DNA of 40,986 nt from an uncultured Clostridia bacterium (GTDB lineage Bacteria; Bacillota; Clostridia; TANB77; CAG-508), in the NCBI GenBank assembly GCA_947589065.1, contig CANPZM010000011.1:1-40986 (forward strand), written 5' to 3'. The position numbers were made by a program, and so were the translations under genes. Shown here piece after piece: positions 644 to 19,607 of this stretch; within the stretch, counting starts at the first letter, position 1, and each line of letters begins with the position of its first letter. The notes under the pieces were generated by a model. It was given only the letters and a program-made list of their open reading frames with translations, was not told where the DNA came from and searched no databases.

Positions 644-671
644 TTGTTACTTATATATAAATAACTAAAAT
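644..671 (+). promoter_or_regulatory. Possible promoter of the giant gene A/B operon
   Basis: TTGTTA and TAAAAT are separated by 16 bp. They lie after the terminator at 557-608 and about 25 bp before the ribosome binding site at 691-700. The match to the sigma-A consensus is moderate. In DNA this AT-rich it could be chance. Confidence 0.35.
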
Positions 672-707: not shown

Positions 708-812
708 ATGTTATCAAAACTAAAGGAAAAAATTAAAGAGAAAAAAATGAAAAAGTGCGAAAATCATTGCAAGAGTACACACACACACACACACACACGG
801 GTATCTAATTAA
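708..812 (+). CDS. Out-of-frame 5' end of giant gene A (OFF-phase leader, 34 codons)
   Basis: ATG at 708 follows a good Shine-Dalgarno site (AAGGAGAG, 693-700). It encodes a lysine-rich N-region, then Thr-His codons from the AC tract, then Arg-Val-Ser-Asn and a TAA stop at 810-812. It ends before any membrane segment. The giant ORF downstream is in another frame, has no ATG, GTG or TTG before 856, and has no Shine-Dalgarno site at 856. Adding 2 nt (12 AC units) or removing 4 (9 units) joins the two frames. The N-region then runs straight into a hydrophobic stretch (codons 811-885) typical of a signal or anchor segment. I read this ORF as the true start of gene A, interrupted by a slippage frameshift. 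It is not an independent small gene. Confidence 0.8.
   Translation: MLSKLKEKIKEKKMKKCENHCKSTHTHTHTRVSN
777..798 (+). repeat. (AC)11 simple sequence repeat inside the gene A coding region
   Basis: Eleven perfect AC units lie between the start codon (708) and the signal/membrane segment of gene A. A tract of C-containing dinucleotides stands out in DNA this rich in A and T. The present count puts the start codon out of frame. Counts of 9, 12 or 15 would be in frame. Counts of 10 and 13 use the third frame and hit TAA at 806-808. Confidence 0.95.
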
Positions 813-855
813 ACGAAATATAATAATTGGAATTATAGTAATTGCTATATTTACA

Positions 856-3800
856 ATGGCATTAATAAGTTCAATATTATTTTTCGGACAAAGAGAGAAT
901 GTAAATAAAAATAATAAAATATATGATCCTGCATTGGCAAGAGCAATGGAATATAAGAGGGTTGGAGAAAATGATAAAGATACTGCGAGTGAATACGTTA
1001 AATTTGATGCATTTTTCTTAGCAGATTTAGATGGAGACCCAACTAATGAAGCAGATGCAGTTCGTGGAACATGTAATGAAATAGGGAAGGAAGATACACT
1101 TTACATGGAATTAAATGTACTAACGAATGGAAGATTAGTTGATGGTAAAATAGAAATCCAAAGTGATAACTTTTACTTACAAACAGCAATTCCAAAAGAT
1201 GGAGAAGTAAGTGAAAATGCAGTAGGAAATAATACGAAACAAATATTATTAAAAGATATAGAAACTGGAACACAAAAGACATTAACAGGAATAGTAAGAA
1301 GTGGAGATTATTCATATGAAAGTAAAAAAACAGCAGCAATAGGAAATGATACAACTAAATATAGTAAAGAAAACAAAATAATATTAACAGGAACACATAT
1401 AGCAGAAGATGGAAGCAGAACCCAAATAAATAAAGAAGTAAAATTTGAAGTAGATTGGTATGGAACAGTAGGAGCTCAATTTCAATATATAAACCAGACA
1501 AAAGATATAAGTAAAATAGTAGATGAAGAGAAACAAGAAGTAAATTTAGAATTTGATATAGAAGTAAGAGAACCACGAAATCAATTAAATATATCAAAAT
1601 CAGTATTAGAAGGAACAGTACCAGAATTAGGTGGACAAAAAGCAACTAGATTAGAAGTAACAGGAACAAATGTAACTTTTGATTGGATACAAGGAACAGG
1701 AAAATTTACAGCACAAAGAGAAGCTCAAAAAGATGAAAAAGGAATAATAACAACATCAGGATATAGTTCAGATTATTCATCATATAAAGTAAATACATAT
1801 AAGTTAAAAGTAACATATCCGTTAGAAGCATATCAGGCAATAGGAGAAAATACAATTGAATATAAAATACCAGTAATTGCACATTATGAAGGATATAATA
1901 ATACACATAAAGAAGCTGGATTTCAAAATCCATATGTATCAAACACAGTTAAAGATACAATAACAATAAATTTTAGAAAACCAGAAGGAAATGTAGCAAT
2001 ATTTGATATAACAGTAGGAAGGTATGTATATTCACCAACAGCAAGATATGTTATTTCAAAGAAAAAACCATTAAATATATACAATGAAATTTCAGAGACA
2101 GAAAAAGATGATGTATATACAGTAAGATGGGATGGATATACAGGTACTTATGGAAAATCAACAGTAATGATAATGAAAGAAACAGAAGGCGACAGTGAGA
2201 CAAAAGTAGCAGATCAGTTTGAAAAAAGTGATGGAAAATATGACAGTATGGAAAAAGTTACAACAAACGTAGGAATATATTTTTCAAACCCTGTAAACTT
2301 ATTAGGAGAAAATGGAGAAATAAAAGTATATGATGATGTAACAGGAGAATTATTAGAAACTTTCAATAAAAGTAATTGGAATAAATATACAAGTACAAAT
2401 CCATATAAATATAAATATCCAGTAAAACACATAAGAGTAGAAACAAGTGCGACAAATGAAAATGCAAGCATATCAGTATACAACATAAAAGAATTAGATG
2501 ATGAATATATAACAACAAATTATAATAGAACAGCATTTGATGAATTACAATACATAAAATCAACATTAACAGGATACTTAGATGAAAGAAAAATAAATAC
2601 AGATACGCATGAAGCACTTTATGAAGCACCAATGTCAGTAGTAGAATTAACAATAGATCCATCAATAATGTCAACACAAGAAACGGAAAAACATGCAATA
2701 ATAACAATAAAACCAGAAGTAAATGAAAATTATAATGAAGAAAAATGGTCAAATGGGTCATTTTTATTAAAGATACCAGAGGAAATATTAGATATAGAAT
2801 TAAATGAAGTAGAAACGACAAATGAAAGTGTGACAGTTATAGGTTCAGAAATAATAGAGAAAGAAAAAAATAAATATATAAAAATATTAACATCAAATGA
2901 AGAGCCAGCCTCATTTGAAATAAAAATTGATTGTAATATAACACCAGATCCAAGAACAGTTACACAAACATCACAGATTGATTTATATGCAATAAATGAA
3001 AACTGCCAAAATTATTATAAACCAGTACAAGATGAACACGATTTGAATGGAAATGAAAACAAAACAGAAATGATAGGACATGCAACAACAAGTGTAAGTC
3101 TAATCTCACCAAATTCATTATTAACAAATGAATATGCAACAGATTATGATGAGAAAGAAAGTGAAGCAGTAGCACCACAAGTAGCAAGAGTAAGTAAAGA
3201 GCAAGAAAGTGCAAAAGTAAATATAGAAATAAAAAATAATTATACAAGCACAATAAGTGATATAAAAATATTAGGAAGAATACCATTTGCAGACAATAAA
3301 TATGTAATAAATGGAGAAGAATTAGGTTCAAATTTTACAACTGAAATAAAAGAAAAAATCAAACTTCCAGCAGATTTAGCCGATGTAGCAACAGTATATT
3401 ATTCAACAAATGGAGAAGCAACAGAAGAAATAAATGGAGAAGGAAACAATTGGGAAGAAGAGCCAGAAAGCTTTGATAATATCAAGAGTTATTTGATAGA
3501 TTTAGGAGACTATCAATTACAAAAACAAGAAAAATATGTAATATCATATGCTATAAGTATACCATCAGGATTAAATTATAATGATGTATCATATAGCCAT
3601 CATGCAGTATATTTTAGTTTAGATACAAAAGAAGGAAAATATAAAACACACACAGAACCAAATAAACTAGGATTTATGATAGCAAAACAATATGATTTAG
3701 AACTAGTGAAATATCAAACGGGGAAAGATAGAATTGTACCAGGGGCAACATATTATATTTGTGAAGAAGGAGCAAAAGAAGGAAAAACGAGAGTAACAGA

Positions 3801-6800
3801 TGCACAAGGAAAATTAACAATACCAGGTTTATATGCAGAGAGAACATATATTATAAGAGAAATAAAAAGTCCAACAGAATATGAATTAAATGCAGGAGAG
3901 ATAAAATTCAAGACAAAAGAAGAAAATGGAAAACTAATATTAGAAGACATAACAGGAACAAGAAAAGAAATAGAAATAATAAACTCAGATGGAGAAAATG
4001 ATTATACGGTACATGTAGAAGTAGAAGATGAGGCAAAAGCAAAATTAAAAATAATAAAAACAGATAAAGAAAGTGAATTAAAACTTTCAAAAGTAAGGTA
4101 TAAAATAACAGGAGATGGATTACTAAAAAATGGAAAAATATTAAGAACAAATCAAAATGGAGAAGTAACACTAGATGGATTAAAAATAGGAACAGAATAT
4201 ACCCTAGAAGAAATAAAAGCAGATGGGTATTATTTAGCAGACCCAATAACTTTTACAATAAATAATGTTGAAGGAGAATACATTGTAACAATAACTGACG
4301 GAATAGATAATAGCATACAAGAAACAGAAGATATTCCAACATTAACATTAAATATAAAAGATGACAAGATTCCAACATATAATTTAGAAATATTAAAAAT
4401 AGAAAAACAAACAGTATTAGATACAGAAGAAGGACAAGCACAACCAGAAAGAAAACTATTAGCCGGAGCAAAATTTAAATTATATAAAGATGATAAGGAA
4501 ATAGGAGAATATACAACAAATAACGCAGGAAAAATAACAATAGAAAATTTATATCAATATGAAGAAGATAGAAAGATAGACCAAACGTATACTTTAAAAG
4601 AAGTATTATCACCAACGGGATATGCAAAAGTAAAAGACATAACCTTTAAAGTACAAAAATCAGCAGATGGAAATACATTAGAATTTGTAGAAGAATTACA
4701 AGAAGGACAAACAGCAAAAAAATATAAAGTAGAAGGAAATAAAGTAGAAGTAACAATAGAAGATAACCCGTCATTCAAATTAATAAAAAAAGACGAAAAT
4801 GGAGAAGAATTAAAAGGAGTAAAATTTGCAATATATAATGTAGATGATGGAGAAACACCAGCTAAAAATAGTAAAGGAGAAATACTGGGAAATAAAGAAA
4901 ATATAAATGGAAGAGATTATTATGTATTAGAAACAAATGAACAAGGATACCTAACAGCAGATTTACCTGAAGGATTATATAAGGCAGTAGAAGTAGAAGC
5001 TCCAGATAAGTATGATATAAAAGATAATATATATTATTTTGGAATAGGAGCATCAAGAGAAGGAAAAACAATTCCAATAACTGAATGGGGAATAGGAATA
5101 GGAGGAACAGGTGATGACAGAATAGTGTCAATCATTGCAACACAAGACGGTGGGTATATTGTAGGTGGAAATTTTTCTGATATGATTCAGATAGATAGAA
5201 ATAATACCTTAATAAGTAATGGGTCTGATGATGGAATATTAATAAAGTATAATGTTAATAATGAAGTTGAATGGAGTAAAATAATAGGAGGAGATGATGA
5301 AGATCAAATAAAAGCAGTGATAAACACAAGTGATGGAGGATACTTAGTAGGAGGATATTTTAAAAGCAATACCATTGACCTAAAAAACGACAAAACATTA
5401 ATCAATATAGATAATGAAGATGGAATGGTAATCAAGTATAGTAAAATGGGAGAAGTTGAATGGAATAAAGCAATAGGAGGAACAGGTTCTGATGTTATAA
5501 CAACAGTAGGAGAAACGATAGATGGGAATTATTTAGTAGGAGGATATTTTAGTGAAACTATAAATTTAGAAAATAATAAAACATTAAAAAGTAATGGGTC
5601 TTATGATGGAATGCTAATCAAGTATAGTATAGAAGGAGAAGCAAAATGGAGTGAAAAAATTGGAGGAACTAGTACTGATGAAATAACAACAGTAAAAGAA
5701 ACGTCAGATGGAGGCTACCTAGTAGGAGGATATTTTAGAAGTAAAGAGATAGAATTAGGAAATGAAAAAATATTAACAAATAATACTTATTATGACGATG
5801 GAATGCTAATAAAGTATAATTCTTATAATGAAGTAGAATGGTGTAAAGTAATAGAAGGAGATTATACTGATGAAATAACAACAGTAATAGAAACATCAGA
5901 TGGAGGATATCTAGTAGGAGGAATTTTTTCAAGCTATTATATAAGCCTAGAAAGCGGTAAATTATTAGGAAATCATAATTATGATAGACATTCTGATGAT
6001 GGAATGTTAATCAAGTATAGTGAAGATGGAATAGTAGAATGGTGTAAAGCAATAGGGGGAAAGGATGATGATAAAATAAATAAAGTAATAGAAACGAAAG
6101 ATGGAGGCTATTTAGCATGTGGATATTTTTGCAACAGTGATATAGGCTTAGGAAATGGAAATAAATTAACAAATCATAGTAGTTATGATGATGGAATGCT
6201 AATCAAGTATAATAAAGATGGAGATGTAGAATGGAGTAAAGCAATAGGAGGAGATTATAATGATGAAATAACAACAGTAATAGAAACAAAAGATGGGAGA
6301 TACTTAGTAGGAGGATATTTTAGTAGTACAGTAAATTTAGAAAATAATAAAACATTAAAAAGTAATGGGTCTCATGATGGAATGTTAATCAAAGTACAAC
6401 TTGAAGATGTACCAGAAGCAACAATAAAACAAGTAAAAATAATAGAAGGAGATAGTTCTGACTGTGTGAGAACAGTAATAGAAACGACAGATGGAGGTTA
6501 TCTAGTAGGAGGAGATTTTAAAAGTAGTACAATAAACTTAGGAGATGGAAACACACTAACAAATCATAGTCGTTATTATTCTGATGGAATGATAATAAAG
6601 TATAATTCTGATAATGAAGTAGAATGGTGTAAGGCAATAGGAGGAGATGGTTCTGACTATGTGAGAATAGTAATAGAAATGACAGATGGAGGATATCTAG
6701 TAGGAGGAAACTTTAGTAGTTCTAAAATAAATTTAGGAGCTGGTAGTTATACATTAACAAGTCATGGCAGTGGTGATGGAATGTTAATAAAGTATAGAGA

Positions 6801-9800
6801 AAATGGAGAAATAGAATGGTGTAAAGAAATAGGGGGAAATTACGATGATGAAATAACAACAGTAATAGAAACGTCAGATGGAGGATATCTAGTAGGAGGA
6901 AAATTTAGTAGTTCTAAAATAAATTTAGGAGCTGGTAGTTATCCATTAACAAGTCATGGCAGTGGTGATGGAATGTTAATCAAGTATAATGCTAATAATG
7001 AAGTGGAATGGAGTAAAGTAATAGGAGGAAACAGTATTGATGAAATAACAACCGTAAAAGAAATGTCAGATGGAGGTTATCTAGTAGGAGGATATTTTAG
7101 TAGTACAGTAAATTTAGAAAATAATAAAACATTAAAAAGTAATGGGTCTCATGATGGAATGCTAATCAAGTATAGTATAGAAGGAAAAATAGAATGGGGC
7201 AAAGAAATAGGAGGAACAAGTGGCGATAGTATAGAAACAATAATAGAAATGTCAGATGGAGGGTATTTAATAGGAGGATATTTTGATAGTAGAGAGATAG
7301 AATTAGAAAATGAAAAAAAATTAATAAATCAAGATTATAGAGATGGAATGCTAATAAAGTATAACTCTAATAATGAAGTCAATTGGTGTAAAGAAATAGG
7401 AGGAAATTACAATGATGAAATAACAACAGTAACAGAAACGTCAGATGGAGGTTGTCTAGTAGGAGGAAACTTTAATAGTTCTACAATAAATTTAGGAGCT
7501 GGAAGTAATACATTGAGTGGTAGTAAAAAATATGATACAGGAATGTTAATTAAGTTTAGTAATGGAGGAGAAGTAGAATGGAGTAAATCAATTGGCGATG
7601 AAATAACAACAGTAATAAAAATATCGAGTGGGAATTATTTAGTAGGAGGATATTTTAGTAGATATATAAATACAGGAGTTGGTAATGAGTCTGCAAGTGG
7701 TGGTTCTGATGGAATGATATTAAAAGTAGTAGAAGAAATGGGAGCATTGGAAGTAGAGAAACTAGAAGTACAAAATAAAGTAAAGCAATTTAAGATAACA
7801 ACTGATGTACAAGAAATAAATGGAATGAGAGGAGGAGATATTGACGGAGAGGATAAAAAGCCATATGAAACAGTAGAATATGATGGAACAAGCAAAAAAA
7901 CAATAAAAATGACACCAGAATCAGAATATGAAATAATATCAGTAACAGTAAACGGAAAAGAATGGAAATTTGATAAACAAGATGACGAAACATACACAAT
8001 GCCACCATTTGAACATATGAAAGAAGATAAACATGTAGTGGTAACATATAGTAAAAAATCAAATAAAATGGTAATAAAAAAGGTAGATAGTAAAACACAA
8101 AAAGGAATACCAGGAGTAAAATTCCAATTAGATCAAATAGAGGAAAGACAAAATCCACAATTGCCATATACATTAACAGATAATGGACAAGAATATGTAG
8201 AAGCAGATATGGCAAATCTAATAGAAGATGAAGGAGTAATAGGAGAATTAGAGCATTTAGGAACATCAGAATATTATTTTGTAGAAGATGAAGAAGGAAA
8301 CTATGTACCAACAAATAGTAAATCTTACAGTGAAAATAATGGAACAGGAAAACATAATAAAACAGCAAATTCATATATACAAATAGACCTATCACAGTTA
8401 AGTTCAGAAGAAAAATATGTAGTAGTTGTAAATGCAAAAGTGTCAAGTCAAAGTTATGATTATGGGTATGCAACAATAACAAATGATAATACAAAAGCAC
8501 CATCATACAATTCAACAACAGGAAGATTTATATATAAATCAGGGAATACAGATATTGAAGCACATGATTATACATCACAAGCGTTACAAGGAGGACAAAT
8601 ATATTATTTACATTTAGGATATTACAAAAATGGAAGTACAGATACAGGAGAAGACCAAATAGTATTTAATAGTGTAAAAGTATATAAAGCTAAAACAGTG
8701 ACATATAATTTTACAGAATCAGAGAGTGGAACATATGAATCAACAAATCAAGGAAAAGATAATACAGAATGCAATTCGTATATAGAAATAGATTTACAAA
8801 CATATACAGGAAAATATAATTTAACAGTAAATGCAGAAATATCAACAGAAAATGGAGATTATGGATATGCGACAATAACACAAAATGATACAAGACCATC
8901 ATATAGTAGTAGTACAGGACAATTTATCTATATAACAACAAAACAAGATAAAAAAGATTATACAACTGTATTAGATGGAGGATTTAAATATTACTTACAT
9001 CTAGGATATTATAAAAATGGAACAACAAATAAAACAGGAAATACAGAAGATAAATTTAAGGTAAATAGTATAGATTTAACTCCAAATGATTCTGAACTAT
9101 ACCATATAGAAGTAGAAACAAATAGTGAAGGAAAAGCAATAACAGAATTGCCATTTGGAAAATATCAAATAACAGAAATAAAAGTACCAGATGGATATTT
9201 ACCAATAGAAGATGATATAATTATAAACTTTAAGGAAAATCAAAAAGATGTAGAACAACCAGTAGACAGTGAAAAGGTGAAAGTAAATGAAATAGATGGT
9301 GAGTATGAATATGAAATAGCAAATAAAAAGAAAGCAAAAGTAACAGTACATCATTTAGCTAGAGAAAATGAGCAACCAGTGGCACCAGATGAACATCAAG
9401 AAGGAAAAGTAGGAGAACCATATAAAACACAACCACATTTAGATTTAGAGAAATATGAATTAGAAAAAGATGAACAAGGAAATCAAAAAATACCTGAAGA
9501 TGCAAATGGAGAGTTTGGAGAAACAGACAAAGAAATAACATATTGGTATATAAAAAAGAAAATTCCATTAACAGTACATCATTACATAGAAGGCACAAAT
9601 ACACCAGTACCATTAAAAGATGGAAATACAGCAGAAGATGTAACAAGTAAAGGAGAAGAAGGAGAATCATATACAACACAAGAAATATCAGATGACGAAT
9701 TATCAGAAGAATATGAATTATCAGAAGTACCATTAAACGCAGAAGGACAATATGAGGGAGACGAAGTAATAGTAACATATAAGTATAAAAAAGTAGCAAG

Positions 9801-12800
9801 AAAAGTAACAATAGTAAAAGTAGAAGAAGATGAAGAAACACCAATACAAGGAGCTAAATTCACAATAAAGAATAAAACAGTAGAAGAAGAGGAAGAACCA
9901 GAAGAATATGAAACAGATAAAAAAGGAAAATTAAATGTTACACTAGAAGCGGGAGAATATGAAATAACAGAAACAAAACCAGCAGAAGGATATCAATTAC
10001 CAGAAGATCCAACAACAGAGGTAACAATAACCAAAGAATCATCAGATCAAGAGATACAAATAGTAAATGAAAAATTAAAAGGAAGAGTAATAGTACATCA
10101 CTATGTATATAGAACAAATAATAGTGTGCCATCAAAAGTAGAGGGAGAAACAGTAGCAGATGAAGTAAAGATAGGAAATATAGGAGCAATATTTGCAACA
10201 CAACAATCAAAAGATGTAAGTCCAAAATATGAATTTGTAGAAGCAGATAAAGAAACAAGTGGAGAATATAAAAAAGAAGAACAAGTAATAACATACTATT
10301 ATAGAACAGATCAGCCAGAGATAGATTCTCAGATAACCAAAGAAGGAACAAAGAGAATAACAAAGAAAGATGCAGAAGTATCATATACAGTACATTACAC
10401 AGCAACAATAGAAGATTACATAGGTTATGCAACGATAACAATAGTAGACAAGTTACCATATCACATAGATGAAGGAGCATCAGATAAACAAGATGGAGTA
10501 TATGATGAAGATGCGAAAACATTAACATGGACAGAAGAAAGAAAAAATATTAACTCATATAATGATGATGGAAGTAACAAAATAGAAATTTACAAAAACT
10601 TAAGATTAGTATTTACAGACATAGATGTAAAAGCAGAAAATATGACGAATGAAGTAACAGGAACATTGAAATTACAGACACCAGAAAAGACAGATGAAAA
10701 GAAAGCAACAGAAGAAACAGAAACAGACTTTAAGATAGATATACCAGTAGAAAAGATATGGGTAGACAAGAGCGATAGAGATAAACAAAGACCAGAAGAA
10801 CTAGAGTTAGTATTAAAGAAAGATGGAATAGAAGAAAAGACAGTAACGATAAGCAGTAAAAAGAATCAAGACGAAGAAGATAGTAACAAATGGACATATA
10901 CTTTTAAAGATTTACCAAAATATGATGAAAATAAAGAAGAAATAATCTATACAGTAGAAGAAAGAGCGAAGGAAAAAGACGATTTGAAATATTACAATCC
11001 ACAGATAGATGGAGAAAATGTGGAAGAAGGAGTAAAAATAACAAATACAATAGATTATGGAAAAGTAACAGTACATCATTATATATTTGGAACAGACGAA
11101 AAAGTACCATCAAAAAATGGAAAAGTAGTAGAGGATGAGCTAATAGAAGGAAATGTAGGAGAAGAATATCATACAAAGCAATCAGACCAAGTAAGTCCAA
11201 ATTACGAATATGTAATAACAGAAGGAAATGAAGATGGAGAAATCCAAGAAGACCCAACAGAAGTAACATACTACTATAGACTAAAAGAACCAAAAGTAAC
11301 AGAGACAGATGTAATAAAAGAAGCACCAAGTATTGTAACACGCAAGAATGAAAAAGTACCATATACAATTAAATATGTAGCAGTAGTGGACGAATATATA
11401 GGAGATGCAACAGTAATAATAGTAGATAAACTACCATATCACATAGATGAAAAAGCATCAGACTTAGCAAATGGTAAATATAATGCAGAAAATAGAACAA
11501 TAACATGGGTAGAAAATATTAGTGGAATAGATACCTATGAAAGTCAAAAGAATGTAATTAAAGTAATAAAAGAAATAGAACTAGTATATACAGATATAGA
11601 TATAACAAAAGATAATATGACAAATAGTGTAACAGGAAGTTTAGATTTATTAATAACTAAAACACATTATGATGATGAAGATGAGGCAGAGACAAAAGTA
11701 GAAATACCAGGAGAAGTAATAGTAAAATATAAAGACAAAAATACAGATGAAGAAATAGAAGAGCCAGTAAGAAAAGAAGACAAAGTAGGAAATAAATTTG
11801 ATGTAGAAGAAGACAAGAAAGAGATTCCAGGATATACATTAGTAGAAGAACCAGAAGAAAAAACAGGAACGTATGGAAACGAAACACAAGAGAAGACATA
11901 TTACTATGCAAAGAATACAACAGTACATGTAACATATGTGGACAAGTTAACAAAAGAAGAGATAGCAAAAGATGAGTTAATAGAAGGATACGAAGGAAAA
12001 GAGTACACAACAGAGCAAAAAGAGATAGAAAATTACAAATTTGTAGAGAGTACAGATAATACAGAAGGAAAGATGACAATAGAACGAATAGAAGTAATAT
12101 ACTATTATGTAAGACCAGCAAAAGTAGTAGTAAGACATGTAGAGAAAGAAACAGAAAAGGACTTAATAGAACCAGAGGAAATTCCTGGATATCAAGATGA
12201 TGAATATACAACAGAAGAAAAACATTTGAAATTCTATAACTTAATAGAGAAACCAGAGAATGCAGAAGGAAATATGACTGTAACGGTAGAGAGGGATAAA
12301 GATGGAAAGATAACGATAAATGATGTAACATATGTAATTTACTACTATGAGAAGAAACCGTTTAACTTAAAACTAGAAAAGAAAATGGATAGCATAATAT
12401 TAAATGGAAAGACAATAAAGGTTAATGGAGATTTAGGAAAGGCAGAGGTATACAGAAAGGCTGTAAATACAAGTAAGATAGAGGTAGTGTATACGCTAAA
12501 GGTAACGAATACAGGAGAGTTAGCAGGAAAGGGAACAATAAGAGAGAGTATACCAAGTGGAATGACAATGGAAAAGGCAAAGAATACTGGCTGGAGGATA
12601 AATGATAGTAAGGCAATGCTAGAGACAGAAAATATTAATCCAGGAGAAACAAAAGAGTACAAAGTAAGGCTAACATGGAAGTCAAATGCAACGAATCTAG
12701 GACAAAAGACGAATATAGCAGAGATAATATCAACAGAGAATGAGGCAGGATTTGAGGAGACAATAAAGGTTGATAATGTTGATACGGCTGATTTGATAAT

Positions 12801-12915
12801 TGCAGTAGGAACTGGTAATGAGATAATCAATGAAATTATGATAAGCACAGGAATAATAGCAATAATGTTAATTGGATTAATAAGTTTAGCAAAGTGGACA
12901 AGAAGAAGGAAATGA
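856..12915 (+). CDS. Giant surface adhesin A: SpaA domains, two predicted 7-bladed beta-propellers, MucBP/Cna-B stalk, C-terminal anchor
   Basis: The open frame runs for 4019 codons from an internal ATG at 856 that has no ribosome site. The real start is probably 708, via the (AC)n tract, giving about 4069 residues. Layout, numbered from 856: a novel N-terminal region (1-780); a DUF11-like region (about 780-940); four SpaA-type domains (about 947-1400); fourteen ~62-residue blades (1411-2295) with recurring DGGYLVGG, DGMLIKY and W-x-K-x-IGG; a small beta domain (about 2310-2400); a SpaA domain split by two similar beta-sandwich modules (2405-2800, insert 2491-2745); MucBP, Cna-B and VDKLPYHID modules (about 2828-3830); and a DUF11-like C-terminal domain. 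It ends in AVGTG (3983-3987), a hydrophobic helix and TRRRK. The last ~940 residues are paralogous to protein B. The likely role is a long stalked adhesin or ligand-binding protein. Domain names rest on motif recognition; the function is inferred. Confidence 0.88.
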   Translation: MALISSILFFGQRENVNKNNKIYDPALARAMEYKRVGENDKDTASEYVKFDAFFLADLDGDPTNEADAVRGTCNEIGKEDTLYMELNVLTNGRLVDGKIEIQSDNFYLQTAIPKDGEVSENAVGNNTKQILLKDIETGTQKTLTGIVRSGDYSYESKKTAAIGNDTTKYSKENKIILTGTHIAEDGSRTQINKEVKFEVDWYGTVGAQFQYINQTKDISKIVDEEKQEVNLEFDIEVREPRNQLNISKSVLEGTVPELGGQKATRLEVTGTNVTFDWIQGTGKFTAQREAQKDEKGIITTSGYSSDYSSYKVNTYKLKVTYPLEAYQAIGENTIEYKIPVIAHYEGYNNTHKEAGFQNPYVSNTVKDTITINFRKPEGNVAIFDITVGRYVYSPTARYVISKKKPLNIYNEISETEKDDVYTVRWDGYTGTYGKSTVMIMKETEGDSETKVADQFEKSDGKYDSMEKVTTNVGIYFSNPVNLLGENGEIKVYDDVTGELLETFNKSNWNKYTSTNPYKYKYPVKHIRVETSATNENASISVYNIKELDDEYITTNYNRTAFDELQYIKSTLTGYLDERKINTDTHEALYEAPMSVVELTIDPSIMSTQETEKHAIITIKPEVNENYNEEKWSNGSFLLKIPEEILDIELNEVETTNESVTVIGSEIIEKEKNKYIKILTSNEEPASFEIKIDCNITPDPRTVTQTSQIDLYAINENCQNYYKPVQDEHDLNGNENKTEMIGHATTSVSLISPNSLLTNEYATDYDEKESEAVAPQVARVSKEQESAKVNIEIKNNYTSTISDIKILGRIPFADNKYVINGEELGSNFTTEIKEKIKLPADLADVATVYYSTNGEATEEINGEGNNWEEEPESFDNIKSYLIDLGDYQLQKQEKYVISYAISIPSGLNYNDVSYSHHAVYFSLDTKEGKYKTHTEPNKLGFMIAKQYDLELVKYQTGKDRIVPGATYYICEEGAKEGKTRVTDAQGKLTIPGLYAERTYIIREIKSPTEYELNAGEIKFKTKEENGKLILEDITGTRKEIEIINSDGENDYTVHVEVEDEAKAKLKIIKTDKESELKLSKVRYKITGDGLLKNGKILRTNQNGEVTLDGLKIGTEYTLEEIKADGYYLADPITFTINNVEGEYIVTITDGIDNSIQETEDIPTLTLNIKDDKIPTYNLEILKIEKQTVLDTEEGQAQPERKLLAGAKFKLYKDDKEIGEYTTNNAGKITIENLYQYEEDRKIDQTYTLKEVLSPTGYAKVKDITFKVQKSADGNTLEFVEELQEGQTAKKYKVEGNKVEVTIEDNPSFKLIKKDENGEELKGVKFAIYNVDDGETPAKNSKGEILGNKENINGRDYYVLETNEQGYLTADLPEGLYKAVEVEAPDKYDIKDNIYYFGIGASREGKTIPITEWGIGIGGTGDDRIVSIIATQDGGYIVGGNFSDMIQIDRNNTLISNGSDDGILIKYNVNNEVEWSKIIGGDDEDQIKAVINTSDGGYLVGGYFKSNTIDLKNDKTLINIDNEDGMVIKYSKMGEVEWNKAIGGTGSDVITTVGETIDGNYLVGGYFSETINLENNKTLKSNGSYDGMLIKYSIEGEAKWSEKIGGTSTDEITTVKETSDGGYLVGGYFRSKEIELGNEKILTNNTYYDDGMLIKYNSYNEVEWCKVIEGDYTDEITTVIETSDGGYLVGGIFSSYYISLESGKLLGNHNYDRHSDDGMLIKYSEDGIVEWCKAIGGKDDDKINKVIETKDGGYLACGYFCNSDIGLGNGNKLTNHSSYDDGMLIKYNKDGDVEWSKAIGGDYNDEITTVIETKDGRYLVGGYFSSTVNLENNKTLKSNGSHDGMLIKVQLEDVPEATIKQVKIIEGDSSDCVRTVIETTDGGYLVGGDFKSSTINLGDGNTLTNHSRYYSDGMIIKYNSDNEVEWCKAIGGDGSDYVRIVIEMTDGGYLVGGNFSSSKINLGAGSYTLTSHGSGDGMLIKYRENGEIEWCKEIGGNYDDEITTVIETSDGGYLVGGKFSSSKINLGAGSYPLTSHGSGDGMLIKYNANNEVEWSKVIGGNSIDEITTVKEMSDGGYLVGGYFSSTVNLENNKTLKSNGSHDGMLIKYSIEGKIEWGKEIGGTSGDSIETIIEMSDGGYLIGGYFDSREIELENEKKLINQDYRDGMLIKYNSNNEVNWCKEIGGNYNDEITTVTETSDGGCLVGGNFNSSTINLGAGSNTLSGSKKYDTGMLIKFSNGGEVEWSKSIGDEITTVIKISSGNYLVGGYFSRYINTGVGNESASGGSDGMILKVVEEMGALEVEKLEVQNKVKQFKITTDVQEINGMRGGDIDGEDKKPYETVEYDGTSKKTIKMTPESEYEIISVTVNGKEWKFDKQDDETYTMPPFEHMKEDKHVVVTYSKKSNKMVIKKVDSKTQKGIPGVKFQLDQIEERQNPQLPYTLTDNGQEYVEADMANLIEDEGVIGELEHLGTSEYYFVEDEEGNYVPTNSKSYSENNGTGKHNKTANSYIQIDLSQLSSEEKYVVVVNAKVSSQSYDYGYATITNDNTKAPSYNSTTGRFIYKSGNTDIEAHDYTSQALQGGQIYYLHLGYYKNGSTDTGEDQIVFNSVKVYKAKTVTYNFTESESGTYESTNQGKDNTECNSYIEIDLQTYTGKYNLTVNAEISTENGDYGYATITQNDTRPSYSSSTGQFIYITTKQDKKDYTTVLDGGFKYYLHLGYYKNGTTNKTGNTEDKFKVNSIDLTPNDSELYHIEVETNSEGKAITELPFGKYQITEIKVPDGYLPIEDDIIINFKENQKDVEQPVDSEKVKVNEIDGEYEYEIANKKKAKVTVHHLARENEQPVAPDEHQEGKVGEPYKTQPHLDLEKYELEKDEQGNQKIPEDANGEFGETDKEITYWYIKKKIPLTVHHYIEGTNTPVPLKDGNTAEDVTSKGEEGESYTTQEISDDELSEEYELSEVPLNAEGQYEGDEVIVTYKYKKVARKVTIVKVEEDEETPIQGAKFTIKNKTVEEEEEPEEYETDKKGKLNVTLEAGEYEITETKPAEGYQLPEDPTTEVTITKESSDQEIQIVNEKLKGRVIVHHYVYRTNNSVPSKVEGETVADEVKIGNIGAIFATQQSKDVSPKYEFVEADKETSGEYKKEEQVITYYYRTDQPEIDSQITKEGTKRITKKDAEVSYTVHYTATIEDYIGYATITIVDKLPYHIDEGASDKQDGVYDEDAKTLTWTEERKNINSYNDDGSNKIEIYKNLRLVFTDIDVKAENMTNEVTGTLKLQTPEKTDEKKATEETETDFKIDIPVEKIWVDKSDRDKQRPEELELVLKKDGIEEKTVTISSKKNQDEEDSNKWTYTFKDLPKYDENKEEIIYTVEERAKEKDDLKYYNPQIDGENVEEGVKITNTIDYGKVTVHHYIFGTDEKVPSKNGKVVEDELIEGNVGEEYHTKQSDQVSPNYEYVITEGNEDGEIQEDPTEVTYYYRLKEPKVTETDVIKEAPSIVTRKNEKVPYTIKYVAVVDEYIGDATVIIVDKLPYHIDEKASDLANGKYNAENRTITWVENISGIDTYESQKNVIKVIKEIELVYTDIDITKDNMTNSVTGSLDLLITKTHYDDEDEAETKVEIPGEVIVKYKDKNTDEEIEEPVRKEDKVGNKFDVEEDKKEIPGYTLVEEPEEKTGTYGNETQEKTYYYAKNTTVHVTYVDKLTKEEIAKDELIEGYEGKEYTTEQKEIENYKFVESTDNTEGKMTIERIEVIYYYVRPAKVVVRHVEKETEKDLIEPEEIPGYQDDEYTTEEKHLKFYNLIEKPENAEGNMTVTVERDKDGKITINDVTYVIYYYEKKPFNLKLEKKMDSIILNGKTIKVNGDLGKAEVYRKAVNTSKIEVVYTLKVTNTGELAGKGTIRESIPSGMTMEKAKNTGWRINDSKAMLETENINPGETKEYKVRLTWKSNATNLGQKTNIAEIISTENEAGFEETIKVDNVDTADLIIAVGTGNEIINEIMISTGIIAIMLIGLISLAKWTRRRK
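5086..7740 (+). repeat. Fourteen ~62-residue blade repeats within gene A (7+7)
   Basis: Fourteen tandem coding repeats share the pattern W-x-K-x-IGG, an acidic D-E-I-T-T-V segment, DGGYLVGG-x-F, a variable loop, then DGMLIKY. Unit 7 breaks the pattern with KVQLEDVPEATI (about 6391-6429), and unit 14 ends with LKVVEEMG. The array therefore divides into two groups of seven, the usual blade number for a closed propeller. Unit 14 lacks a few residues after its SIG. Some units are almost identical in DNA (9 and 10; 7 and 11), a sign of recent duplication or conversion. Confidence 0.8.
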
Positions 12916-12952: not shown

Positions 12953-15900
12953 ATGAAGATAAAACATATTATTGTAATAGCGATAATTATATGCTTATTC
13001 ACAACTATAGGTATTATTCTAGGTGCAAAAAATGGAATCAATGTAATAAATTTTGATATTCAAAAAATAATGTCTTTAAATGAAGTAAATCAAGAAGGAC
13101 AACATAAATATTTTATCAAACATTATTACGGTGGAAAAATCGATACGGGCGAAACTAAAGAAGTTTTTGCTAGTATAGGTGATACAATAAGTCAAGTAGA
13201 TAAAATAGAGAAAAATGATTACATATTTAAAGAAGAAAAAAATGTACCATTAGAAATTACAGGAAATGAAGAAAAAGATGTTATAGAAGTTTACTATGAA
13301 AAACATGAGATAATTATAGAAAAAGAATTTATAGATATTGAAGATGCTGAGATTAAAAATATGCAAGATAAAGCATTTAATTTCAAGGTATATTTAGGAG
13401 ATGAAAACATTGAAGAATTTTCAAATTCGAATCTTTACAATGGCGAATATGAATTAATAACTAGTAGTGGTAAAAGTTTTCAAAATATGACTGATGGTCA
13501 ATTGTCTTTAAGACCTGGAGAAAAAGCAATTATTCATGACATTGAGGAATCAAATTATAAGGTAATAGAAGAGGAAGAATATTATTATAAGATAAAAAAT
13601 ATTGATGTTTATGAATTTGATACTGCTGACAGACAATATAAAGAATATGATGATGAAGACGCAGATGTTATTAATTTACAAGAACCTTCTGTTTCAGGGA
13701 CAATTAAAACAATAAGTAAAAAGATTGTATTTAAAAATGGACCAGATCACAGAACTACGATAAAAGGAAGAAAAATTTGGGCAGGAACACCAAGTAAAGG
13801 ATTACAAATTCCAGAAGAAATAGAAATTGTATTGTTGAAATTTGACTCAATGGGAACTTTAAAAGAGAAATATTATACAACAGCACATGCACCAAATTAT
13901 GAATTTGAATTTAATAATGCTTTTGACCTAGATGGAAGAGAGGATGATACATATTTAGTAAGAGACAAAAGATCAGATGATATATATGATTTTTATTTTA
14001 CACCAAGATATTATACTTATGAAAACCTTTCAGGAGGAAGAGATTCATATGAAAATTATTGTACAGAAATAGGTGATGGAGCTTATTATATGATGACACA
14101 AGAAGGAAGCAAGGAGAATGGATATGAAATTACTAATACATTACAACAAGAAAGGAATTTGACAGTAAGAAAAGAATGGTATATACCAGCGTATGATAAT
14201 TTAGTCCCAGAAGATTCAAATTATCCGTGGAATGTAAATGCTTCTTTGCAAGCAAATGTGTCATATTCAGAATATAATTATAATGTGTCAATTTCATTAG
14301 AACAATCAAGTAATTGGGAGACAACAGTAACAGTACCAAAATATGATACTAATGGAAATGTAATAGATTATATGTTGGTTGAAGATACTCATTTAGATAA
14401 TTGGGAATCAAGCATAATGGATGATGGTGAAGATGGGTATATAATTAAGAATACATATAATGGAAGGTATATACCAACATATGATACAGTAAATTTTACA
14501 GTAACAAAAGAATGGGAATATAATGGTGGTGGAACACCGACATATTCAAAACCAGAATCAATATATATAACTTTGGAATCAAGTGGAACAAACACTCAAA
14601 TGCCAGGAACTTATGATACAACGGTAGAACTATCTGAAAGTAATGAATGGACATATACATTTTTTGGTTTGCCAAAATATGATGATATGGGAACGGAAAT
14701 TGTTTATAGTGCAAGAGAAGATTCGTGGTTGGATTATTATATTCAAAGAGATTCGTATCTTGTGGGAAATACTTATACAATAGTTAATGAATATACAGGA
14801 CCATATTTACCAGAATTAGAAGTGACAAAAAGTGCAACGACACAATATGGAAAGGATTATGTATTACCAGGTGAAGAGATAACATATACTATCACAGCTA
14901 CGGATACATCTTGGAATAATTATATTGAAGGAGATATAACAGTATCAGATATTATTCCTGAGGGGACTACTTTTGTAAGCGGAAGTATAGCAATAGACGG
15001 ATATAGCGGAGGATATTATTATGATGAAAATAGTTTAAGAACAGGTATTGTGCTAAATATGCGAGAGAATCAAAAAACTATACAATTTAAAGTAACTGTT
15101 GATGATGATGCGACAGGTGTTATACGAAATAAAGCTACTGTAAATGGTAATGAAACAAATGAGACAGAGAATCCTGTGTTAAACATAGAAAAAACTGCTA
15201 CTGTTGTAGAAAGGCAAAGTAATCTAAGTGGCAATGAAGTATCAGTAGGAGACATTATAGAATATAAGATAAAAATAACTAATCCAGGAAAAGCAATTTC
15301 TTTAGGATATTATGATGAACTAGAAGTACAAGACACAATTCCAAATGGAACAGAATTAGTAGAATACAGCATAAATGAATATGGATATGAGTATAACAAT
15401 GTAGTTTTTTGGTCAATAGATTATTTAGGGGAGCGAGAAGAAAAAGAATTATCTTTCCAAGTTAAAGTAAAATATTTAGACGCAAATACAATAATAAGAA
15501 ATGTTGCAACAGTTGGTCAGGAAACAACAAATGAAACGCAAAATTCATATAAGGTTCCAGAAACAGAATTATCAAGTACACTGAATAAAACATGTTTATC
15601 ATCAAATATAACATCTACAAATCAAAAAATTGATTATAAAGTAATATTTAATGGAACAATTAAAAATTTTACTGGAAAAGCTAAAATAACTTTAACTGAT
15701 ACATTGCCTTATAAAATAGATAAGGAAAACTCAAAATTTGATAATGGTGAATATAATGATGATAAAATAATTACCTGGGAACAAATAATCGATGTAGATA
15801 CATCAAATCAAGAAAATGGAGAACAAAATATAAAGATTGAAAAGAATCTTAGCTTATTATATTTATATGAAGATTTAGAAGAAAATCCAGGAACAATAGA

Positions 15901-18841
15901 AAACAATGTTCATAGTAGAATAGAGCTAATTAAACAAGAACAAGTAAAAGATACAGATGAAAAAGATTCATCTGCAGATATAGATGTTAACTTCAAGCCA
16001 AGAGTAATTGTACATCACTATATAGAAGATACAAGTGAGCAAGTTCCATCAAAATTGGGAGATGGAAAAAGGGTTGATGATGAAATTCAAGAGGGAACGA
16101 TTGGACAAGAATACCATACACAACCATCAGAAAATGTTCAACAAAATTATAGTGTGGTGGATCCAAATCCTGCTGGGGCAAATGGTAATATGACGCTAAA
16201 AGAAATAGTAGTAATATACTATTATAGATTAAGAGAACCATCAATCATGTCACCAGAGATAACAAAAGAAGGACCGAATGAAACTATTACAGATAAAGAT
16301 GTAAGAGTACCATATACAATTAATTATGTGGCTACGATAGATAATTATATAGGTGATGCAACTGTAACAATAGTAGATAAATTGCCTTACCATATAGATT
16401 CAAAATTATCATCATTGCAAGATGGACAATATGATCAAGCCCAAAAAACAATAACATGGACAGAAGAAATCAAGAACATAAATTCATATGAAGAAGAAAA
16501 AAATAATATTAATATAAGAAAAGAAATTGAACTTGTATATACTGATATTGAAACATCAGCAACAAGTATGACAAATGATGTTACAGGAACAGTACATTTA
16601 AAAACACCAGGAAAAACTGAAGAGAGTACAGGTAGCGAAACAACGCAATTAGATTTTAATATTGATATTCCAGTAACCAAAATTTGGGATGATGATAATG
16701 ATAAAGAGAAAAATAGACCTAATGAGATAGAGATAATTTTAAAAGAAAATGGAACAGAAAAGAAAACGCAAGTATTAAATAATCAAAATAAATCAATAGA
16801 CAATAATACTTGGGAGTATACATTTACAAATTTACCAAAATATGATGAAGCAGGAAATAAAATAGTATATACAATAGAAGAAAGAGAAAAACAAGAAAAT
16901 GGATTAAAGTATTATACATCAAAAGTTACTGGGGATGATGTAGAAAAAGGAATTACAATAACAAATTCATCAAATTTTGCAAAAGTAATAGTGCATCATT
17001 ATGTGCTTGGAACTAAAGAACAAGTACCAGCAAAAGATGGTGGAACTGTACAAGATGAAATAAAGAAGGGAAATGTAGGAGATCCATATAGTACTGAAAA
17101 ATCAAATAATATAAGTCCTAATTATGAATATTTTGTAACAGACGGTGATGAAAAGGGAAATATGGCAAAAGGTACTATAGAGGTAATATATTATTATAGG
17201 TTAAAAGATCCAAAAGTGACAGAAACGGATGTAATAAAAGAGGGACCAAGTAAAATTACGGACAACGATGCAAAAATTTCATATACAATTAAGTATGTTG
17301 CTGTAATTGATGATTATATAGGAGATGCTACAGTAACGATAATAGATAAATTACCATATCACATAGATGAAAAAGTTTCTAAACTTGATGGAGGAAAATA
17401 TGATGAAAAAAATAAGACAATAACATGGAATAGCGAAATTAAAGGAATAAATTCTTATGAAGACAAGAATGATGATATAAATATTCAAAAAGAAATTGAA
17501 TTGGTATATACAGATATAAGCAAATCAGCTACATCGATGACAAATAGTGTAACTGGAAGATTAGATTTATTAACAACCAAAACACATTATGAAAACGAAG
17601 ACAAAGTAAAAACGGAATTAGGCAAATTGGGAGAAGTGATAGTAAAATATAAAGATAAGTCAACAGGTAAAGAAATAGAAGATAAAGTAAGTAAAAAAGG
17701 AAAAGTAGGAGAAAAATTTGATGTAACTCCGGACAAGAAAAAAATTCCAGGATATACTTTAGTTGAAGAGCCAAAAGAAAAGACTGGTGAGTTTAAGGAA
17801 AATCTTCAAGAAAAAACATACTACTATGCAAAGGATACAACAGTTCATGTGACATATGTAGATAAATTAACAAAAGAGGAAATAGCAAAAGATGAATTAA
17901 TAAATGGATATGAAGGCAAAGATTATAATACAAAACAAAAAGAAATAGATAAATATAAATTTGTAGAAAGCACAAATAATACAAAAGGAAAAATGGCAAG
18001 GAAACAGATAGAGGTAATTTACTATTATGTAAGACCAGCGAAAGTAGTAGTAAGATATGTGGAAAAAGGGACAGGAAAAGACTTAATAGAGCAAGAAGAG
18101 AAAAAAGGATATCAAGATGATAAATATACAACAGAAGAAAAGCATTTGAAATTCTATAACTTGTTAGAGAAACCAAATAATGCAAAAGGAAATATGACAG
18201 TAACAATAAAGAGGGATAAAGATGGAAAGGTAACAGTAAATGATACTACATATGTAATTTACTACTATGAGAAGAAACCGTTTAACTTAAAACTAGAAAA
18301 GAAAATAGATAGCATAATATTAAATGGAAAGAAGATAAGGGTAAATGGTGATTTAGGAAAAGCAGAGATATACAGAAAGGTAGTAAATACAAGTCAGTTA
18401 GAAGTGGTGTATACAATTAAAGTAGTAAATACAGGAGATATAACAGGAAAGGCCATAATACGAGAGAATATACCAAATGGAATGGTTATGAATAGAGAAA
18501 GCAATTCAGAGTGGACGGTTAAAGAAAATGATGCAATATTGGAAACAGATAATATTAATCCTGGAGAGGCAAAGGAGTATAAAGTAAGATTGACATGGAG
18601 AGCAAATTCAGCAGATATAGGACAAAAGACCAATACAGCAGAGATAATATCAACAAAGAATGATGTAGGTTTTGAGGAGACGATAAAGGTTGATAATGTT
18701 GATACGGCTGATTTAATAATTGCAATTGGTACTGGTAATGAGGTTATCAATGAGGTGTTAATTGGAAATGGAGTAATGGCGATAATGTTGATTGGGTTGA
18801 TTGTGTTGGCAAAATGGGAGAGGAAAAAAGAGGAAAAATAA
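12953..18841 (+). CDS. Giant surface adhesin B: Cna-B, DUF11 and MucBP stalk protein with C-terminal anchor
   Basis: This 1962-residue protein starts 37 bp after gene A, behind GGAGGGGAGG, so it is probably in the same operon. Residues 1-27 form a signal/membrane segment. The rest of the layout is: a MucBP-like module (about 48-115); Cna-B-like domains (about 115-260, 268-400, 402-500, 514-615); two DUF11-like domains (about 620-870); and from about 1018 the block shared with protein A. That block holds MucBP (VIVHHY...VIYYYR), VDKLPYHID modules, a Cna-B domain (VTKIWDDDNDKEKNRP), three further MucBP repeats (about 1561-1775) and a DUF11-like domain. The tail is AIGTG (1924-1928), a hydrophobic helix and ERKKEEK. 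It is an intact reading frame with a different N-terminal head from A on the same stalk. The likely role is a wall- or membrane-anchored adhesin; the ligand is unknown. Confidence 0.88.
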   Translation: MKIKHIIVIAIIICLFTTIGIILGAKNGINVINFDIQKIMSLNEVNQEGQHKYFIKHYYGGKIDTGETKEVFASIGDTISQVDKIEKNDYIFKEEKNVPLEITGNEEKDVIEVYYEKHEIIIEKEFIDIEDAEIKNMQDKAFNFKVYLGDENIEEFSNSNLYNGEYELITSSGKSFQNMTDGQLSLRPGEKAIIHDIEESNYKVIEEEEYYYKIKNIDVYEFDTADRQYKEYDDEDADVINLQEPSVSGTIKTISKKIVFKNGPDHRTTIKGRKIWAGTPSKGLQIPEEIEIVLLKFDSMGTLKEKYYTTAHAPNYEFEFNNAFDLDGREDDTYLVRDKRSDDIYDFYFTPRYYTYENLSGGRDSYENYCTEIGDGAYYMMTQEGSKENGYEITNTLQQERNLTVRKEWYIPAYDNLVPEDSNYPWNVNASLQANVSYSEYNYNVSISLEQSSNWETTVTVPKYDTNGNVIDYMLVEDTHLDNWESSIMDDGEDGYIIKNTYNGRYIPTYDTVNFTVTKEWEYNGGGTPTYSKPESIYITLESSGTNTQMPGTYDTTVELSESNEWTYTFFGLPKYDDMGTEIVYSAREDSWLDYYIQRDSYLVGNTYTIVNEYTGPYLPELEVTKSATTQYGKDYVLPGEEITYTITATDTSWNNYIEGDITVSDIIPEGTTFVSGSIAIDGYSGGYYYDENSLRTGIVLNMRENQKTIQFKVTVDDDATGVIRNKATVNGNETNETENPVLNIEKTATVVERQSNLSGNEVSVGDIIEYKIKITNPGKAISLGYYDELEVQDTIPNGTELVEYSINEYGYEYNNVVFWSIDYLGEREEKELSFQVKVKYLDANTIIRNVATVGQETTNETQNSYKVPETELSSTLNKTCLSSNITSTNQKIDYKVIFNGTIKNFTGKAKITLTDTLPYKIDKENSKFDNGEYNDDKIITWEQIIDVDTSNQENGEQNIKIEKNLSLLYLYEDLEENPGTIENNVHSRIELIKQEQVKDTDEKDSSADIDVNFKPRVIVHHYIEDTSEQVPSKLGDGKRVDDEIQEGTIGQEYHTQPSENVQQNYSVVDPNPAGANGNMTLKEIVVIYYYRLREPSIMSPEITKEGPNETITDKDVRVPYTINYVATIDNYIGDATVTIVDKLPYHIDSKLSSLQDGQYDQAQKTITWTEEIKNINSYEEEKNNINIRKEIELVYTDIETSATSMTNDVTGTVHLKTPGKTEESTGSETTQLDFNIDIPVTKIWDDDNDKEKNRPNEIEIILKENGTEKKTQVLNNQNKSIDNNTWEYTFTNLPKYDEAGNKIVYTIEEREKQENGLKYYTSKVTGDDVEKGITITNSSNFAKVIVHHYVLGTKEQVPAKDGGTVQDEIKKGNVGDPYSTEKSNNISPNYEYFVTDGDEKGNMAKGTIEVIYYYRLKDPKVTETDVIKEGPSKITDNDAKISYTIKYVAVIDDYIGDATVTIIDKLPYHIDEKVSKLDGGKYDEKNKTITWNSEIKGINSYEDKNDDINIQKEIELVYTDISKSATSMTNSVTGRLDLLTTKTHYENEDKVKTELGKLGEVIVKYKDKSTGKEIEDKVSKKGKVGEKFDVTPDKKKIPGYTLVEEPKEKTGEFKENLQEKTYYYAKDTTVHVTYVDKLTKEEIAKDELINGYEGKDYNTKQKEIDKYKFVESTNNTKGKMARKQIEVIYYYVRPAKVVVRYVEKGTGKDLIEQEEKKGYQDDKYTTEEKHLKFYNLLEKPNNAKGNMTVTIKRDKDGKVTVNDTTYVIYYYEKKPFNLKLEKKIDSIILNGKKIRVNGDLGKAEIYRKVVNTSQLEVVYTIKVVNTGDITGKAIIRENIPNGMVMNRESNSEWTVKENDAILETDNINPGEAKEYKVRLTWRANSADIGQKTNTAEIISTKNDVGFEETIKVDNVDTADLIIAIGTGNEVINEVLIGNGVMAIMLIGLIVLAKWERKKEEK

Positions 18842-18899: not shown

Positions 18900-19061
18900 G
18901 TTAAAAAAATCATCTATTAATTTTTTTGTTCCTTACTGGCATTGCCTCGGAATGTTTCCGGGAAGGCAATGCCAATCGCCCGCGAAAAAAATATCAAAGA
19001 TATTTTTTACTTGGTTGAACGCTGCGCGTCACAGCAAAAATTAATAGATGATTTTTTTAAC
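18900..19061. repeat. Structured intergenic repeat, type 2
   Basis: A perfect 26-bp terminal inverted repeat lies at 18900-18925 and 19036-19061. The inside mirrors the type 1 element: a central hairpin GGCATTGCC / GGCAATGCC and an A/T hairpin (AAAAAATATC / GATATTTTTT). Compared with type 1, one pair of the central stem changes from T-A to C-G on both sides, so pairing is kept. The end of this element recurs in the spacers between type 1 copies. Confidence 0.78.
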
Positions 19062-19100
19062 TGAGTAGAGTAAATTTTTTTGTTCCTTATTAATAATATT

Positions 19101-19269
19101 GTAATTTCAAGATATAGATATTAATTTTTGCTCCTTGCGGGGCATTGTCTCCATCGAATATTAGACTGGAGGACAATGCCAATCGCATTACGTTCAAAAA
19201 TCAGAGATTTTTTCACTCCATTTGGTCGCTACGCGTCGCATCAAATTAATATCTATATTTTGAAATTAC
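19101..19269. repeat. Structured intergenic repeat, copy 3 (type 1)
   Basis: Terminal inverted repeats lie at 19101-19127 and 19243-19269. One change in the left arm (A to G) leaves the rest of the terminal stem intact. The central GGCATTGTC / GACAATGCC hairpin and the short AAAAATC / GATTTTT hairpin (loop AGA) are conserved. A short open frame beginning with TTG runs through the repeat and is judged spurious. Confidence 0.8.
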
Positions 19270-19360
19270 TTAAAAATAAGTGCTGCGCGTCACAGCAAAA
19301 ATTAATATATGTTTTTTTAACTGTTCAGAGTAAATTTTTTTGTTCCTTATTAATAATATT

Positions 19361-19529
19361 GTAATTTCAAAATATAGATATTAATTTTTGCTCCTTGCGG
19401 GGCATTGTCTCCATCGAATATTAGACTGGAGGACAATGCCAATCGCATTACGTTCAAAAATCTATGATTTTTTCACTGCATTTGGTTGCTACGCGTCGCA
19501 TCAAATTAATATTTATATTTTGAAATTAC
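19361..19529. repeat. Structured intergenic repeat, copy 4 (type 1)
   Basis: This copy starts 260 bp after copy 3. Terminal inverted repeats lie at 19361-19387 and 19503-19529, with one wobble-compatible change in the right arm. The small hairpin has loop TAT, as in copy 2. The flank to 19607 is a decayed version of the inter-copy spacer and holds no gene. Confidence 0.8.
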
Positions 19530-19607
19530 TTAAAAATAAGTTTCGTGCATCACTGCAAAGATTAATATATGAATTTTTTTAACTATTTAGTGAATAATTT
19601 GTGTTTT

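Follow-up and report, generated by a model that had tools for sequence, protein, structure and literature searches.

A giant Clostridia adhesin with two predicted seven-bladed beta-propellers and a candidate (AC)n switch

Organization of the adhesin gene

The window, which is the whole stretch of 40,986 nucleotides analyzed in the present study, comes from an uncultured Clostridia bacterium and contains a giant adhesin gene. The frame, the domains on both sides of the propellers and the C-terminus were located as follows.

751..12915, forward strand: reading frame of the giant adhesin, first in-frame ATG at 856, 4019 aa from there (ORF analysis)
3697..5070, forward strand: four prealbumin-like SpaA domains, preceding the propellers (domain scan)
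7738..8058, forward strand: conserved domain that immediately follows the propeller slot (comparison with relatives)
9052..12780, forward strand: further stalk with SpaA, Cna_B, seven MucBP and a DUF11-like domain (domain scan)
12781..12912, forward strand: C-terminal VDTADLIIAVGTGNE, hydrophobic segment and RRRK tail without LPXTG, a possible non-canonical sorting signal judging from the sequence

A Pfam scan of the whole adhesin returned SpaA, MucBP, Cna_B and DUF11 as the only credible domains. The upstream ~950 residues were common to the members of the adhesin gene family and were followed by the four SpaA domains. The propellers lay mid-chain, with about 1,400 aa before and 1,700 aa after them. 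The preliminary description of this DNA had placed them between SpaA domains and the rest of the stalk, and this arrangement was found, with four SpaA domains ahead and the stalk domains behind. The protein showed the composition of a fibrillar stalk, namely a hydrophobic N-terminal segment, six SpaA domains, Cna_B, seven MucBP domains, and a C-terminal hydrophobic segment with a basic tail. These stalk domains are those of the Gram-positive SpaA/Cna_B/MucBP fibrillar adhesins, and the genome likewise encodes sortases, with eleven matches, one of them in the window at 25359-26135. Unlike those adhesins, the present protein carried propellers in a fixed internal slot and ended in ADLIIAVGTGNE, a hydrophobic stretch and RRRK, without the LPXTG sortase motif. 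The gene product would be a giant fibrillar adhesin anchored in the wall or the membrane.

The window also encodes two more MucBP/Cna_B proteins, of 1962 aa and 2800 aa. A conserved [AE][LM]IIA[VI]GTGNE preceded the C-terminal hydrophobic segment in the adhesin (12781-12912) and in the products of 12953-18841 and 32402-40804, where it replaced LPXTG; it is a possible non-canonical sorting signal. Within a SpaA-like domain at residues 2480-2740 (window about 8290-9080), we observed two related modules of the form SYIQIDL...YGYATIT...YYLHLGYYKNG, for which Pfam gave no hit at E 1 or below and which are possible second binding modules. The intergenic region at 19021-19584 held a direct repeat of ~260 bp in 2.2 copies with 93% matches.

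Units and borders of the repeat array

The array consisted of 14 units, each 58-67 residues long, at residues 1407-2293 of the ORF at 856-12915 (window about 5074-7734), and was divided as follows.

5074..6399, forward strand: propeller 1, comprising units 1-7 (closed toroid of seven blades predicted)
6400..6417, forward strand: inter-propeller linker LEDVPE (unit HMM and alignment)
6418..7734, forward strand: propeller 2, comprising units 8-14 (all seven pair with those of propeller 1, at 52% identity)

The spacing between YLVGG anchors was 61-67 aa. All 14 units scored 67-106 bits with the unit HMM, and Tandem Repeats Finder reported the array as the strongest tandem repeat in the window (period 192, score 1305), so the array is not a product of chance. 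The pattern was interrupted after unit 7 at KVQLEDVPEATIKQ, where the W of W-x-K-x-IGG was missing, and again after unit 14, which was shorter than the other units. The anchor spacing, the HMM scores and the lost W confirmed the earlier reading of 14 tandem units with breaks after units 7 and 14. The range first given, 5086-7740, was right within a few residues, except that the first strand of unit 1 begins at ~5074.

The repeats had initially been compared in style with SBBP or delta-60 repeats. For the repeat region, Pfam SBBP (PF06739) had no listed match up to E 10, and DUF5122/delta-60 (PF17164) reached a marginal 28.1 bits against a cut-off of 27 over one short stretch of 13 residues. 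Weak Pfam matches to MoaF, DIL and others were rejected as repeat noise. The repeats also matched NF047494, the NCBIfam model of the Leptospira SBBP-repeat beta-propeller lipoprotein LipL53 (E 9e-24), at 84 bits, far under the curated cut-off of 400, which places them outside that family. In contrast to LipL53, the window protein is no lipoprotein and has two propellers within a Gram-positive stalk protein.

Predicted fold and nearest structures

AlphaFold2 folded units 1-7 into a closed seven-bladed beta-propeller with a long N-terminal strand (pLDDT 87.5, pTM 0.89), from an alignment built from seven-unit relatives, which favours seven. The predicted ring comprised seven four-stranded blades, with the strand order a (IxxVIET), b (YLVGGYF), c (DGMLIKY) and d (VEWSKIIGG). 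According to this strand list, the first W-strand would be the d strand of the last blade, giving a one-plus-three closure. The structure prediction recommended in the preliminary description therefore gave the expected toroid for units 1-7, whereas the whole 14-unit region, folded as a single sequence, reached a pLDDT of 32 and was uninformative. Predicted models of a highly repetitive 47-blade array are also reported to collapse into each other, which resembles the failure of the whole array here (PMC9218822).

The top VIA-align match of the propeller-1 model was CylK, which aligned over 381 residues between model positions 9 and 450 (Z 42.9, rmsd 2.5). WD40-type rings came next with Z of 33 or below, the designed seven-bladed v13WRAP-T gave Z 31.5, and Foldseek agreed with VIA-align. 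The alignment profile of the propeller family also retrieved CylK by sequence (E 2.6e-39), whereas a phmmer search with the raw propeller region found no match among the PDB sequences; the profile alone succeeded. The search against propeller families that had been suggested earlier thus yielded CylK, with SBBP unmatched and LipL53 below its cut-off.

CylK is a Friedel-Crafts alkylating enzyme (PDB 7RON, 7FH6) whose propeller is reported to be seven-bladed, with calcium at the blade junctions (PMC8916777). It shared the closed seven-bladed fold with the propeller-1 model end to end at 22% identity, and its repeats were of the same type as the window units (W...GG...G...D.w..K.d..G). Since CylK is the closest solved relative, the propellers could themselves be CylK-like enzymes, which we regard as very improbable. 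Catalysis in CylK needs Arg105 of its N-terminal calcium-binding domain, and the active site lies between the domains (PMC8916777); the Pfam scans of the adhesin, a long stalk protein, gave no such calcium-binding domain, and its blade sequences were homogenised, with unique residues not kept.

The fold of propeller 2 is deduced from its alignment with propeller 1. When both window halves were aligned with 14 stand-alone relatives, seven units paired with seven with no internal loss. An alignment that included the 7+7 array of another Clostridia genome (L039) was dropped; MAFFT displaced propeller 1 by one unit, and the relatives with seven units were placed across the two rings, so that closure would have been biased. 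On this comparison, units 1-7 and 8-14 would form two separate closed seven-bladed beta-propellers in the middle of the protein, with the W-x-K-x-IGG strand at the N-terminus of each ring pairing with the last blade to close it.

Unit counts in relatives and the 7+7 division

The 7+7 division was deduced by comparison, from the seven units of stand-alone relatives and from the 7, 14 or 21 units found in this slot in paralogues and relatives. About twenty stand-alone relatives with seven units by HMM were found in Bacteroidota, Ignavibacteria, Hydrogenothermaceae, Paenibacillus and archaea. In the genome of the window, such arrays occurred at ten further places. Six further paralogues had 14 units and one (C19) had seven in the same slot; C47 carried an N-terminal propeller of seven units by eye, and C90 a similar but weaker N-terminal one. 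Propeller matches were present in 34 of 195 sampled genomes and in 16 of 39 genera of one bacterial family. The giant surface proteins of the bacterium studied here bear one or two propellers mid-protein, and that of a relative bears three. The slot between the four SpaA domains and the downstream domain appears to be conserved across this bacterial family. In L039, the linker and the slot were kept in a 7+7 arrangement despite several eroded blades.

Among the fetched family loci with both flanks (n = 28), the automatic count was 14 in 13 cases, 7 in eight, 21 in one and other values in six, so that 22 of the 28 arrays were multiples of seven. Three of the automatic non-multiples (L150, L165, L172) were 14 on reading, and another (L091) gave 14 under another version of the model. 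The L092 array was too degenerate for counting, and L153 (G116 C2) was a real, intact 6+7 array and hence an exception to the sevens. In L139, which has 21 units, junctions fell after unit 7 and after unit 14. A related pair outside the 28-array set (L040 and L042) had eight units each. These counts suggested that seven is strongly preferred but not obligatory. The survey for the same insertion elsewhere that had been proposed earlier therefore found the slot filled with 7, 14 or 21 units in paralogues and relatives; together with the propeller-1 model and the CylK match, it supported the original core claim of seven-bladed propellers in the slot after SpaA. At three loci (L041, L050, L051; two related Clostridia genomes), the propeller gene shifted frame at the same spot (~10480-10530) with the sequence GTC TTT TAA C. 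This site resembles a +1 frameshift of the prfB kind and may be that, or it may reflect decay.

One 14-bladed ring or an open solenoid stack would also account for 14 units, and the whole array, as a single-sequence fold, reached only pLDDT 32. Against it stand the conserved linker and the W missing at unit 8, the lone arrays of seven units, found both in this slot and in stand-alone relatives, and the division of 21 into 7+7+7. The near-repetitive blades of WRAP (Npun_R6612), one of several recently amplified propellers, also argue against it; its 14 near-identical units make two seven-bladed rings (PMC9218822). Unlike the propellers of the window adhesin, WRAP sits on a STAND ATPase. We therefore consider a single ring or stack to be hardly credible. 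Closure into two rings after unit 7 within the 14-unit chain is supported indirectly by the linker and by the unit counts of 7, 14 and 21.

Turnover of the blades

In its N-terminal region, the window protein shared 67-70% identity with the two paralogues closest to it. Same-index blades shared 0.47 identity with the window in the first paralogue and 0.45 in the second, and different-index blades shared 0.45 and 0.43, respectively. Hardly any positional orthology of the blades thus seems to be kept between these paralogues, although their flanks match at 67-70% identity. Within the window array, units 3, 7 and 11 were 76-79% identical among themselves. In the most diverged paralogues (C34, C28), blades were no more alike within an array than between arrays. 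These values, taken from identity tables and not from a tree, suggested that either blades were copied among positions or arrays were re-amplified, with the copy number returning to whole sevens either way. Propellers are thought to arise through blade amplification with no counting system, and recent amplifications show many blade numbers (PMC9218822); the counts here were almost entirely 7, 14 or 21. It appears that blades were homogenised or reshuffled over evolution and that, as the counts imply, sets of seven persisted almost alone because they close.

The (AC)n tract and the start region

Upstream of the adhesin frame, three elements were recognized.

644..671, forward strand: promoter-like TTGTTA-16-TAAAAT (invariant in six paralogues; as a single match no better than chance)
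708..812, forward strand: conserved start region MLSKLKEKIKEKKMKKCENHCKST(HT)n, running into a stop at 810-812, OFF (paralogue alignment)
777..798, forward strand: (AC)11 tract, candidate slipped-strand switch (five copies of the gene in this genome have tracts of 6, 22, 22, 24 and 30 nt)

The (AC)11 tract separated the conserved start ATG 708 from the 12-kb adhesin frame. That frame was open only from 751 and contained no ATG, GTG or TTG before 856, and ATG 856 fell inside the signal segment. Residues had originally been numbered from ATG 856, which is unlikely to be the true start, in place of the conserved ATG 708. Paralogues on four other contigs (C40, C25, C49, C23) had the invariant promoter-like site, the start MLSKLKEK or a near variant, an AC tract and the signal segment; C28 had the same promoter and start without the tract. 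Their flanks were well conserved, and the tract measured 6, 22, 24 or 30 nt, compared with 22 nt in the window. Tracts of 6, 24 and 30 nt (three paralogues) were in frame, and those of 22 nt (window and C25) were out of frame and hit a stop, the window reading MLSKLKEKIKEKKMKKCENHCKSTHTHTHTRVSN-stop. The adhesin copy is OFF in the assembled sequence. Tract length therefore sets the reading frame in these copies, as at a contingency locus, with lengths taken from one assembly and variation seen among paralogues, not among cells. The genome contained seven AC tracts of at least 16 nt, four of them at the adhesin gene family, and 100 shuffles of the window produced no such tract.

The tract could instead be a feature of assembly or decay, the gene being a pseudogene or starting at another codon. 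A metagenome-type assembly can miss a tract length by one unit, and translation could in principle begin at ATG 856. Yet the 4,000-codon frame was intact, the promoter, ribosome site, start and flanks were conserved while the tract alone differed in two-base steps, four of the seven long AC tracts sat at this gene family, and a start at 856 would fall within the signal segment. We consider this explanation unlikely. Expression would probably be turned on and off by strand slippage within the (AC)n tract, which lies just past the start codon, and the lengths among paralogues suggest that the adhesin may switch reversibly in a population. In oipA of H. pylori, a CT repeat likewise forms a 5' dinucleotide tract that moves a surface adhesin in and out of frame (PMC10564699); the present case differs in having an AC tract and a giant adhesin, in Clostridia, and in that tract variation is known among paralogues only.

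A terminator-like element at ~562-610 was rejected as a regulator, as it lies upstream of the promoter-like site, and no Rfam families were found within the window. At other loci (L122-L137; C19 and C29 of the same genome, and G012, G013 and G009), an (AC)n tract followed a short conserved start, MKNAESLERV-HTHT.. or MKTLKVLREY-THTH... One congener (G012) had many such loci, with a stop next and, in several, then a terminator-like hairpin and a surface-protein gene. The (AC)n start peptides at these loci could be length-variable leader peptides acting as an attenuator.

Possible role of the propellers

The propellers would most likely act as ligand-binding modules displayed on the stalk. A binding role is plausible by analogy with smaller proteins. 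In two small proteins (L038, L037), a propeller at the N-terminus was linked to Cna_B and MucBP domains, and two proteins of other genera (L154, L160) had the propeller near the N-terminus. The term 'ligand-binding head' is unproven here because the propellers are internal and not at the tip. Loop variability did not mark one face, with 1.79 (b-c) and 1.68 (d-a) bits on the nominal top and 1.17 (a-b) and 1.89 (c-d) bits on the nominal bottom, and a single variable binding face was therefore not cleanly supported.

A doubtful but not negligible alternative is that the propellers serve as spacers or as rigid elements of the stalk, and that binding is done by other parts, for example by the 950 N-terminal residues or by the repeat pair at residues 2480-2740. 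The internal position, with about 1,400 aa ahead of the propellers, agrees with it, as does the strong conservation of the N-terminal region across the gene family, which would be expected of a functional tip. However, in smaller proteins encoded by this genome and by related ones, a propeller directly follows the signal region, and the propeller diverges faster than its flanks, as a diversifying contact surface would. Overall, we think it probable that the gene encodes a giant adhesin with two closed seven-bladed propellers that bind ligands on a stalk, with blade reshuffling and on/off switching by (AC)n.

The kinds of element involved are known, namely amplified propellers, a fibrillar adhesin and slipped-strand phase variation; a literature search found no propeller-bearing fibrillar adhesins. 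The added interest lies in the sevenfold counts despite blade turnover and in the probable phase switch, which was absent from the preliminary description. High blade turnover with counts nearly fixed at 7, 14 and 21 offers a natural test of ring closure selecting copy number. We give about even chances to the broader view that the adhesins of these uncultured Clostridia have propellers continually rebuilt from reshuffled blades and held to whole sevens, and that several in this genome are independently switched by (AC)n slippage, so that a population would display changing combinations. For gut-type bacteria, these results point to an uncharacterised, probably phase-variable adhesin repertoire.
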